Of a stretch of DNA of 64,000 nucleotides, positions 47,919 to 59,673 are shown one piece after another. Location: positions 1 through 64,000 of the forward strand of contig JAUSMA010000061.1 of NCBI GenBank assembly GCA_030645475.1, in the 5' to 3' direction. The position numbers and the translations under genes are program-made. Position 1 is the first letter of the stretch, and each line of letters begins with the position of its first letter. The notes under the pieces are model-generated. The model was not told the origin of the DNA. It did not search any database and saw only the letters and a list, made by a program, of their open reading frames with translations. The stretch comes from Nitrospirota bacterium (GTDB taxonomy: Bacteria; Nitrospirota; Nitrospiria; Nitrospirales; Nitrospiraceae).

Positions 47919-47994
47919 CATGCTTGGGCTATTATGTTGCACTTGACACCCATGTATGGTCCTTGGTATATTCGTCCCAACAAAGGAGGACGAC

Positions 47995-48888
47995 ATGACC
48001 AAGCCGACTATGACACTCGCCGCGTTGATGACTCGCTTCTCTACCGAAGAAGCCTGCAAAGAGTTCTTGATTCAACAACGCTGGCCGAACGGAGTGGAGT
48101 GCCCTCGCTGCCATAACAAGAAAGTCTATGCCCTTAAGAGCAAGCCGTTTCACTGGGTCTGTAAGGGCAAGGATTGCGGAGAGCGAAATGGCTATCGCTT
48201 CTCTGTGATCAGCAAGACCATTTTTGAGAATACAAACTACCCACTTCGTATCTGGTTTCAGGTGATCTACTTGATGACGCAGAGCAAGAAGGGCATCAGT
48301 GCCTTGCAGATCCATCGCCAGATCGGGAGCGGCGACTATCGCACCGCCTGGTATATGTGCCATCGGGTTCGTGCTGCCATGCGGGATAGCGGATTCGCTA
48401 AACTCATAGGTGAAGTGGAGGTTGACGAAACCTATATTGGTGGCAAGGACAAAAACCGGCATTGGGACAAGAAAGAGCATGTGAAGGGCGGTAGTGCCAA
48501 GATGACTGTCATCGGGGCCATTGCTCGTAAGGGAAACGTCGTCTGCCAGGTGATCGAGAATGCGGACCGCCTGACCATGTGTAACTTCGTCCGTCAAACT
48601 GTCGGCGATGCCGTGTCGCTTGTTGCCACCGATGAGGCTGCAGGTTATGCCACACTCAAGAACACGCTCCCACATGAATCCGTGAATCACGGCAAGAAGG
48701 AATATGTTCGCGGCAATGTGCATACTAACAATCTGGAAGCCTTTTGGAGCTTGTTGAAGCGCGGCGTGATCGGCACGTTTCACCAAGTGAGCAAGGACTA
48801 CTTGCCGCTGTACCTGGCAGAATTCTCGTTCCGGCATAACAACCGGAAGAATGCTGACATCTTCACGCAGGTCGTAGCAGGATGCTGA
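47995..48888 (+). CDS. IS1595-family transposase
   Basis: A 297-residue transposase with an N-terminal zinc ribbon (CPRCHNKKVYAL, then VCKGKDC) and a DDE/N-type catalytic domain: VEVDETYIGGKD, VATDEAAGY, and HTNNLEAFWSLLKRGV, where the last acidic site is Asn/Glu-type as in the ISXO2-like domain. AAAGGAGG lies before the ATG at 47995. The last five codons run GTC GTA GCA GGA TGC before TGA. The frame is intact, so the element may be active. Confidence 0.93.
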   Translation: MTKPTMTLAALMTRFSTEEACKEFLIQQRWPNGVECPRCHNKKVYALKSKPFHWVCKGKDCGERNGYRFSVISKTIFENTNYPLRIWFQVIYLMTQSKKGISALQIHRQIGSGDYRTAWYMCHRVRAAMRDSGFAKLIGEVEVDETYIGGKDKNRHWDKKEHVKGGSAKMTVIGAIARKGNVVCQVIENADRLTMCNFVRQTVGDAVSLVATDEAAGYATLKNTLPHESVNHGKKEYVRGNVHTNNLEAFWSLLKRGVIGTFHQVSKDYLPLYLAEFSFRHNNRKNADIFTQVVAGC

Positions 48889-51408: not shown

Positions 51409-53043
51409 TCAAAAGTTTCCCGCCTGGACCACATCCTCAAGGCTGTTGATATCGAGCCAGTGGCCTGCCGTATAGAGCACGCGGATTGGGTACTGCCGTT
51501 TCAAGAGTTCTTGGAGCAGGTGCGGGATGCCGGCTTTGCGGTTGGCTGGCTTGGCCAGTAGCTCCACAATGATGCCGGTGATGAGCGTGGCGGCGCTGGG
51601 TGAGACTTTGAGAAAGCCCATCCAGACCCCGTGGATGGATTCTTTGGGAAGGTTGTCGCCCAATTGCTTGAGAAAGATCTTTGCGTTAAAGGCTCTTCTC
51701 GAATTGGGAATGGTACATTCTGTAAATCCGCCGAGGCGGGCATAGCTGCTCTGTTCCTGCCAGTTGCTGTCGACGAAAATGACGCAGTCACCGGTTTCCT
51801 GGCAGAGGGACTGGGGAATATATTTATTGAACAGCACGTCGCCATAGGAAATGATGGTGTCCTTTGCCGGTCCTTTCAGGGATTGGAGGGCCTTTAAGAG
51901 CGAATCCAGTTCGCCGGTGTCCGCGAAATCGTCGTTGTCGACATAGGTCAGGTTGGGCAGATTGACGGTTTCTTTCTTATATCCGCGGACCACCACGATG
52001 TCTTTGATCCCTACGGCATTGTAGGCGTCGGCGATATGGGACAGGATGGGGATGCCCTGGATCTTGACCATCGTTTTGGGCTGCAGTTCGGTAAGTTCCC
52101 CCAGCTCTTTTCCGCGGGAGGCGGCCAGCACGATGGCCGCGGTGCCCTCGGCGCCTTTGGGCAGATAGCGGTCTTCAGCCTCTTGTAGCTCTGCGGCGTT
52201 TTGCAGGCGGAAGATTTCGGAGACCGGCGCGACTTTGTCTTCGATGGAGAGCAGGTGTTCCTGGTCCTTTAACGTGCGTGCGGTTTTTTGCATGGCGGCC
52301 ACGGCCGATCGAAGCATGTGATTGGCCCAAATCACCATCGAAATCCCATGCTGCCGAAACACGTCGGTGGGGGTCGCGTAATATTTGGTGGGCACGATCA
52401 CGACGGGGCAGCGATTGCCCCATTCCTGTTTGAACGCCAGGATTTCATCCGGCACTGAGAGGGCGCTGTGAATGAGGATGCCGTCCGCCCCTGCCTGATG
52501 ATAGGCCTCGGCGCGACGCAGCGCTTCCGCCAACCCCCAGCCGCAGATGAAGGCTTCCACTCTGGCGATAATACAAAAGTCCTGGTCGGTCTGCGCATCT
52601 TTGCCGGCTTTGATCTTGCCGCAGAATTCCTGCATGTCCGCCATGGGTTGGGCGTCCCCCTTGATGAAACTATTCGTCTTGGGGAAGAGTTTATCTTCGA
52701 TACAGACCGCGGCGATTTTGCGTTGTTCGAGTTTGCGGACTAAGCGCTGCATATTATTGAAGTTGCCGTACCCCGTGTCGCCATCGAGGAGAATGGGAAT
52801 CGTGGTGGCGTCGGACATAAATTCCAGGGTCTCCAGCACCTGGGTCCAGCTGGCTTCGTTGTTGTCACGGACGCCGAATTGCGCGGAAATGGAGAGACCG
52901 CTGCCCCAGATGCCTTTAAAGCCAGCCTCTTGAACGATTTTTGCGCTGAGGCCATTGTGCGCCTCGCAAATGAATTCGAGCTGCTCCGACAAAAGGAGCT
53001 TCTTAAATTGACGTGCTGTGGTCGTGCCTGTGGTCGAACTCAT
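51409..53043 (-). CDS. Phosphoenolpyruvate mutase fused to a nucleotidyltransferase
   Basis: A 544-residue two-domain protein. Residues ~10-290 are a PEP mutase of the isocitrate-lyase superfamily: GIWGSGL near 45, DGDTGYGN at 87-94 and the diagnostic [10 protein letters not shown] at 116-125, which makes phosphonopyruvate from PEP. Residues ~300-540 are a sugar-phosphate/choline-type nucleotidyltransferase ([37 protein letters not shown]), so it probably activates a phosphonate as a CMP derivative. No phosphonopyruvate decarboxylase or aminotransferase is nearby. The mutase call is firm; the transferase substrate is inferred. Confidence 0.88.
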
Positions 53044-58033: not shown

Positions 58034-58278
58034 GTGTTGGTGTTCTGTTCTTGCTCCAAGCGTACAGGGTATCGAAGTCCTGTTGGCGTAATCAAAATAG
58101 TTTCTTCGATGCCTGCTAGATCAAGGGACAAAGCACAGCCTCGATATTATGCTGGAGGGCCAGGGGGAACTCAACTACAGCCGCGATTGCTGTTGCGGTG
58201 CTCCGTTTCTTGACAGTCGCGCAAAGGCGAGAGTAGGCTCAACTTGTCACTCGTTATACATTGAGGCCGGATTCATTG

Positions 58279-59673
58279 ATGTTGCCCATTGTGTCCCCAC
58301 TATCGCGGCCACTCATTTTCGTATTGCTCGCCTGCTTGTTGGTGCCGATGTTTTGTCCGTCGCCGGCTACTGCCCAACTGGGAAAGCCGGAAGGGCTCTA
58401 CTACAAGTCGTGGGCCATTATCATCGGGGTGGAGAACTATCTTCTGGCTCCGAAGATTCCCGGCGCAATAGAAGATGCCAAGGCAGTGGCCCAATCCTTC
58501 CGCCAATTAGGCTTCGACGAAGTCGTGGAGCTCTACGACAAGGATGTGAGTTTTCGCCGTCTGCAGCAGACGCTCTCCGATTTTTTGCCCCGCAAGGTCG
58601 GTCGGCATGATCGGCTTGTGCTTTATTTCGTCGGGCATGCCGGGATGACGCAAGATCTTGACGGCAAGGAATTGGGGTATCTCGTGCCCTGGGATGCGCA
58701 GATCGGAAACGTGTCCAAGTCCGTGACGTTTGAGCAGCTCAAAGAATTCAGTCGGCGGAGTGCGTCTAAACATACGCTCTTTCTCGTGAACGCGGCGGTT
58801 CGCGGGTGGGAGGTGAGCACGGCTCAGCCCCTCTCCCTTGAAGGGCGCTTGGCCCCGGAAGACGATACGGAGCGGCGAGCGGTGCAGCTCTTGACGGCGG
58901 GCGATAAGGGAGAGCCCCTGAGTCAGGAGAATGGGAAGAGTGTCTTCGTGCAGGCGCTGGTGAATGGACTGAGTGGCATGGCAGATGGCAATAAGAATGG
59001 CTGGCTCATGGCTTCCGAGGTTGGAGACTATGTGAGGCAACAAGTTGTGGAGCGGTCGAAGGGTGCGCAGCATCCTCTTTTCGCACAGCTTGAAGGGGAC
59101 GGGGATACGGTATTGATCGAGGGGCGAAAGGCCGCGTTTGTCGCAGGGGCAGGGCCTCAGTCTCCATTTGAGCAACGGCAGGCCGCAAAGACGCAGTATG
59201 AACAGGCGTTTGCATTGCTCCAAACCGGGAAGTTGGCGGAGGAAGCGCTGGAGCGGCTGAACAAAGCCTTGGAATACGACCCCACGTTCGGCGATGCCTA
59301 TGTGCTCAAGAGTTATGTGTTGTTAGAAGTGATACCGAACCTTGATGCCGCGTTATCGGCGGCGACGCTGGCGGTACAGTATGCGCCGAAGAACCCGGAC
59401 TCTCAGTACACGCTTGGGTTGATTCACGAAAAACGCGGGCAGTATGCCGAGGCCGAGCGCGCGATGCAGGCGGCGCTGGTAGTTAATCCCAACTATGTGG
59501 ATGTCTATTTCTCGTTGGGGATTCTCTATGCCGACGAGATGAAGGATCAGTCCAAATCAGTCGAGGCCTTCACGCGCTATCTCGAACTCGGGGGAAGTCA
59601 TGCTCGCGCCCGAGCTGCCGTTGCACAGCAGTCATCACCCGCCGCTCCTGTCGTACCATCTGCCAAGCCTTAA
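58279..59673 (+). CDS. Secreted caspase-fold (C14-like) protein with TPR repeats, probably inactive
   Basis: A 464-residue exported protein: signal peptide ending near PATAQLG, a caspase/metacaspase-like domain from residue ~45 (WAIIIGVENYLL) and TPR repeats near residues 300-450. His120 in FVGHAGM occupies the catalytic position, but the cysteine position aligns with Ala173 in FLVNAAVRG instead of the usual DACHSG. It is therefore probably a pseudo-enzyme used for binding. The ATG at 58279 has no strong ribosome-binding site. It heads the envelope cluster. Confidence 0.78.
   Translation: MLPIVSPLSRPLIFVLLACLLVPMFCPSPATAQLGKPEGLYYKSWAIIIGVENYLLAPKIPGAIEDAKAVAQSFRQLGFDEVVELYDKDVSFRRLQQTLSDFLPRKVGRHDRLVLYFVGHAGMTQDLDGKELGYLVPWDAQIGNVSKSVTFEQLKEFSRRSASKHTLFLVNAAVRGWEVSTAQPLSLEGRLAPEDDTERRAVQLLTAGDKGEPLSQENGKSVFVQALVNGLSGMADGNKNGWLMASEVGDYVRQQVVERSKGAQHPLFAQLEGDGDTVLIEGRKAAFVAGAGPQSPFEQRQAAKTQYEQAFALLQTGKLAEEALERLNKALEYDPTFGDAYVLKSYVLLEVIPNLDAALSAATLAVQYAPKNPDSQYTLGLIHEKRGQYAEAERAMQAALVVNPNYVDVYFSLGILYADEMKDQSKSVEAFTRYLELGGSHARARAAVAQQSSPAAPVVPSAKP

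Follow-up and report, generated by a model that had tools for sequence, protein, structure and literature searches.

Among PepM proteins having the EDKX5NS motif, 33% are fused to a PF12804 domain (Rice et al. 2019, PMC6697681). The PepM (Ppm)-PF12804 fusions of phosphonyl tailoring (Pnt) pathways contain the same two domains as the protein described here, and the published clusters that carry such a fusion also encode a second, separate nucleotidyltransferase (NTase) (PMC6697681). PntC activity has been measured on Ari1348 and Tde1415 (Rice et al., PMC6697681). Fom1 of the fosfomycin pathway is likewise a PepM fused to a cytidylyltransferase (PMC6697681), but its cytidylyltransferase is an N-terminal PF01467 domain, whereas the NTase of the present protein is C-terminal and belongs to the PF12804 family.

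Here we analyse a 64,000-nucleotide stretch of DNA from a Nitrospira genome (contig JAUSMA010000061.1, positions 1 to 64,000; the window), in which, compared with the Pnt fusions (PMC6697681), pepM lies apart from the other pathway genes.

Results

Identity of the PepM-NTase fusion

The window gene (51409..53043, minus strand; type A) is one open frame with an ATG start and encodes a 544-aa protein. An earlier note on this DNA had read it as a PEP mutase-nucleotidyltransferase fusion, which is borne out for both domains: residues 13-283 (52195..53007, minus strand) match the TIGR02320 PEP mutase equivalog with 392.8 bits (cut-off 319.55), and the MobA-like NTase domain at residues 298-544 (51412..52152, minus strand) contains a PF12804 match at residues 303-423 with 48.6 bits (Pfam gathering cut-off 27). 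The frame is not a chance one, because most sampled relatives have it and it recurs in several other phyla; the best matches among named genomes are Nitrospira MAGs. The protein carries the EDKX5NS motif as [10 protein letters not shown], spanning residues 116-125 (52669..52698, minus strand), and the E, D, K, K122, N and S positions together with D60 are identical in 96/96 type A homologues. With TIGR02320 over its cut-off and the motif invariant, the reading of this part as a true PepM domain is supported. Among solved mutases the mussel PepM (structure 1m1b) comes closest, aligning to residues 9-296 (E 1.6e-130). Phosphonopyruvate hydrolase was rejected as the identity of the protein, the hydrolase model reaching 225.8 bits against 392.8 bits for the mutase model. 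By its sequence, the window protein looks like a genuine PepM of a common fused design and is predicted to form the C-P bond; it is the only PepM copy in its genome.

The order acs, pepM, rsuA-like pseudouridine synthase around the window gene is conserved in near relatives. The observation that no decarboxylase or transaminase lies nearby is right for the window, since tblastn of the decarboxylase and transaminase proteins described below against the whole window gave no match at E<=0.01. A tblastn search for a decayed full-length ppd beside the gene found no real remnant in the window: the only strong matches were to the pepM gene itself, because the frames labelled ppd in loci L142 and L144 either overlap pepM-like sequence or continue from it. 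Two neighbouring genes are recorded here as separate observations. An IS1595-family transposase gene (47956-48888) lies downstream of pepM at a distance of ~2.5 kb, in a place where gene order differs in many related Nitrospira. A gene at 58261-59673, conserved next to acs in related genomes, encodes a protein that combines a caspase domain (Peptidase_C14) with TPR repeats at its C-terminus.

A second locus with candidate genes for the rest of a 2-AEP pathway

A genome search for phosphonopyruvate decarboxylase and 2-AEP transaminase, proposed as a check in the earlier note, returned candidates for both on contig C69 of the same Nitrospira genome, within a six-gene plus-strand cluster (locus L012, C69:455000-474900). 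The N half (ppdA, alpha; L012:8538-9062) and C half (ppdB, beta; ending at L012:9637) of a TPP enzyme are candidate subunits of a phosphonopyruvate decarboxylase. They are followed by a class V aminotransferase closest to 2-AEP transaminases (AEPT; L012:9717-10799), a stand-alone PntC-like NTase with full-length similarity to Treponema PntC (L012:10796-11515) and, by family match, a protein that joins an N-terminal part lacking a Pfam match to a CDP-alcohol phosphotransferase (L012:11723-13150) and a flippase-like LPG-synthase-TM/HpnL-like protein (L012:13143-14162).

TIGR03301 is by far the best family for the AEPT among the PhnW/AepZ equivalogs tested, with 347.2 bits, just under the cut-off of 360.8, and the best PDB matches of this protein are 2-AEP transaminases. 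The stand-alone NTase aligns with Treponema PntC (6pd1) over residues 2-238 (E 3.6e-14), and its GxGxR, PK and DxD motifs are intact in 33/33 relatives. Treponema denticola PntC-AEPT (6pd1/6pd2) is its closest solved relative and at the same time the closest fold to the fused NTase of the window protein; PntC is fused to the transaminase in T. denticola, whereas the two are separate adjacent genes here. The phosphotransferase motif DGxxAR...G...D...D is intact in 32/32 relatives. The protein that carries it shares its layout, NTase-like part plus CDP-alcohol phosphotransferase, with IPCT/DIPPS (inositol-1-phosphate cytidylyltransferase/CDP-inositol phosphotransferase; NF041135), but its 110.4 bits are far under the family cut-off of 580, and its N-terminal part is probably not an active NTase, because it has no Pfam match.

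Both decarboxylase halves score under the TIGR03297 phosphonopyruvate decarboxylase equivalog cut-off. The alpha half prefers phosphonopyruvate decarboxylase over sulfopyruvate decarboxylase (131.9 vs 110.2 bits), and the beta half slightly prefers sulfopyruvate decarboxylase (190.4 vs 175.6 bits).

Co-occurrence and gene order across genomes

Of 198 Nitrospirota genomes sampled, 57 have the cluster-type transaminase and 56 have PepM; 55 genomes have both, three only one (split 2/1) and 140 neither (Fisher p 2e-45, a value that ignores kinship). Two genomes listed as 100% complete, G119 and G192, have no PepM, and AEPT is the last gene of their clusters, which lack the genes for the NTase, the phosphotransferase and the flippase-like protein; the phosphotransferase, looked for in the whole of both genomes, is absent from each. 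Because the Fisher p ignores kinship, this correlated absence is the better evidence of joint function. Genome G027 has the cluster and yielded no PepM, and G004 shows the reverse; these mismatches are perhaps assembly gaps. As a side observation, ppdA, ppdB and AEPT are retained in G119 and G192 (L173, L174) despite the loss of PepM and the rest of the cluster.

The C69 cluster might instead make a sulfonate, from sulfopyruvate via sulfoacetaldehyde to taurine, with PepM serving something else. Such a role would fit the slightly higher score of the beta subunit as a sulfopyruvate decarboxylase and the persistence of ppdAB and AEPT without PepM in two genomes, but the alpha subunit prefers phosphonopyruvate decarboxylase, nine of the genomes sampled from the phylum have a PepM homologue adjoining the cluster genes, and the cluster itself encodes a PntC-like enzyme and a CDP-alcohol phosphotransferase. 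We know of no CMP-activated sulfonate, and regard a sulfonate product as unlikely.

Gammaproteobacteria, Gemmatimonadota, Spirochaetota and a cyanobacterium also have type A fusions, which share ~57-66% identity with the window protein, and the usual gene order in these other phyla is pepM-NTase, full-length ppd, AEPT, NTase. These data bear on the shorter pathway that the earlier note had offered as one option, in which the fusion alone would make phosphonopyruvate and its NTase would activate that or another early phosphonate without decarboxylation. The only point in its favour is that partner genes are missing from the window. The genome does contain decarboxylase, transaminase and PntC-like genes, which track PepM across the phylum, and ppd and AEPT follow type A in other phyla, so that a short pathway is very improbable; a complete set of conventional pathway genes elsewhere in the genome is what the earlier note itself had named as refuting it. 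In one gammaproteobacterial type A operon (L158:12828-18419), the genes after that for the NTase encode a protein weakly matching CDP-glycerol glycerophosphotransferase, a DUF3413-sulfatase protein and a YidC-like protein, a hint that the acceptor differs in that organism.

Within Nitrospira, a full-length ppd directly follows pepM in many genomes and is missing in the nearest relatives of the window. Since some Nitrospira, such as G221 (L177, L178), have a full-length ppd beside pepM plus the split ppdAB cluster, another phosphonopyruvate decarboxylase may work alongside the split pair or may have preceded it. G221 also encodes, at L176:5622-7004, a second PepM, with an N-terminal PF01467 cytidylyltransferase fusion as in Fom1, adjoining a 1422-aa methyltransferase-glycosyltransferase protein; this locus is probably a separate phosphonate cluster. 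The PepM tree was built without L176, a different PepM fusion whose very long branch distorts the tree.

Two mutually exclusive types of PepM-NTase fusion

A divergent PepM-NTase (type B) is found in place of type A in 11/198 genomes; it scores 270-290 bits, and its mutase part shares ~38-41% identity with that of the window protein. Most type B fusions (L044:6266-7945, L045:7095-8783, L046:11831-13510, L063:8827-10509 and those in L164-L171) lie beside 2-AEP cluster genes: in 9/11 type B genomes the gene adjoins ppdA, and 3-4 kb separate its start from AEPT. Forty-four type A genomes have the cluster, and in these pepM lies on a different contig or, if the contig is shared, 0.2-2.5 Mb off. 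The two types never coincide in any of the 198 genomes (p 4e-10, without correction for kinship). Swaps are seen within genera: genus g2 includes G032 and G201 with type B and G231 with type A, and g6 has both types. In G201, type B sits between PilZ-like genes and ppdA, and the same slot is without pepM in G231 and in the window's genome. Because type B adjoins the decarboxylase genes in related species and no genome has both, type A probably replaced a cluster-linked type B in the window's lineage, the direction being provisional; such a replacement by an unlinked type A would account for the separation of pepM from its cluster.

EDKX5NS is absent from type B, which has EDN[VI][YF]PKRCS instead in 12/12 sequences. 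Family scores for mutase (TIGR02320) and phosphonopyruvate hydrolase (TIGR02321) are about equal for L044 (276.5 vs 272.9 bits) and clearly in favour of mutase for L063 (275.7 vs 235.7 bits). A hydrolase reading of type B is disfavoured because type B is the sole candidate in this cluster, a place that a hydrolase would hardly fit, and the position of type B and its mutual exclusion with type A suggest that it is a PEP mutase. EDKX5NS is used to define PepM in surveys, and those demanding a match to it would miss type B proteins (PMC6697681, PMC12723261).

The fused NTase domain

Because domain placement in the model of the full-length window protein is weak (pTM 0.50), the NTase domain was modelled alone. 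The resulting model has a mean pLDDT of 92.2 and matches the fold of PntC first (6pd2) and then that of LicC. The domain departs from the GxGxR...PK signature, with PK kept and ASRGKEL in place of the arginine loop: LAASRGKEL at residues 306-314 (52102..52128, minus strand) replaces the usual LAAGxGxRL. The loop is LAASRGxEL in the 96 homologues, where the canonical arginine position is E, A or D and never R. R310 is conserved in 94/96, and the PK lysine, E378, D402, D425 and D531 are invariant. The type B fused NTase has the loop AAGFE[KE]xLL. Decay to loss of function within Nitrospira was considered and rejected, as other phyla share this conserved loop. The fused NTase represents a distinct, conserved LicC/PntC-like subfamily that may or may not form CMP-AEP. 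Its missing GxGxR arginine is a possible further difference from the published PepM fusions (PMC6697681).

The earlier note had assigned to this C-terminal domain the attachment of CMP to a phosphonate. The PntC-like fold agrees with that assignment, but CMP transfer is in doubt because the GxGxR arginine is absent in 96/96 relatives, and an NTase with intact motifs is present in the cluster. It is a real possibility, only just short of an even one, that the fused NTase does not cytidylylate 2-AEP and instead acts on another phosphonate or serves as a non-catalytic regulatory or oligomerisation domain, with the stand-alone NTase transferring CMP. This would be in line with the distribution of the arginine (0/96 fused vs 33/33 stand-alone NTase homologues) and with the published activities, which belong to PntC proteins other than Ppm-fused domains (PMC6697681). 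The invariant PK lysine, E378, D402, D425 and D531 and the near-invariant R310 argue instead for a working, perhaps rearranged, active site, as does the best fold match to PntC.

Discussion

The window gene is a phosphonate gene of known architecture, and its orphan appearance is explained by genome organisation: the genes lie at separate locations, so pepM only appears orphan. Very probably it encodes the enzyme that opens a conventional 2-AEP surface pathway, the remaining genes of which are not linked to it, with reactions, substrates and product assigned from protein families. PepM would convert PEP to phosphonopyruvate, the two-subunit TPP decarboxylase would yield phosphonoacetaldehyde, and the PhnW-like transaminase would form 2-AEP, which the stand-alone PntC-like enzyme would activate to CMP-AEP. 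The CDP-alcohol phosphotransferase would then pass AEP from CMP-AEP to an alcohol, with a lipid as the most likely acceptor, and the HpnL-like membrane protein may flip the product. Transfer to a lipid or another alcohol is suggested by the presence of the phosphotransferase and the flippase-like protein, and the family logic makes a 2-AEP lipid or glycan the likely product. The earlier proposal that genes elsewhere help to make phosphonate-decorated lipids or glycans is thus supported as to the genes, a complete 2-AEP set being present on C69, and its product stays a prediction. A search of an open-access library, outside which most subscription papers lie, returned incidental papers only and no report of 2-AEP surface lipids or glycans in Nitrospira.

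Three features remain of interest: the swap of PepM types, the lack of the motif in type B and the non-canonical loop of the fused NTase. We tentatively advance, as a possibility somewhat short of probable, that Nitrospirales have one 2-AEP surface pathway served by two mutually exclusive PepM-NTase fusions, that type B is a working mutase without EDKX5NS so that motif surveys undercount producers, and that both fused NTases, which lack the canonical arginine, have a new role or mechanism. Type B offers a case for asking whether PepM works without the textbook motif, and the window protein a concrete case for asking whether the PepM-fused PF12804 domain, which a third of known PepM proteins carry, has cytidylyltransferase activity. 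More generally, a pepM that looks like an 'orphan' can be part of an intact pathway divided across the genome, and Nitrospira, which are widespread nitrifiers, are predicted to carry 2-AEP on surface lipids or glycans.
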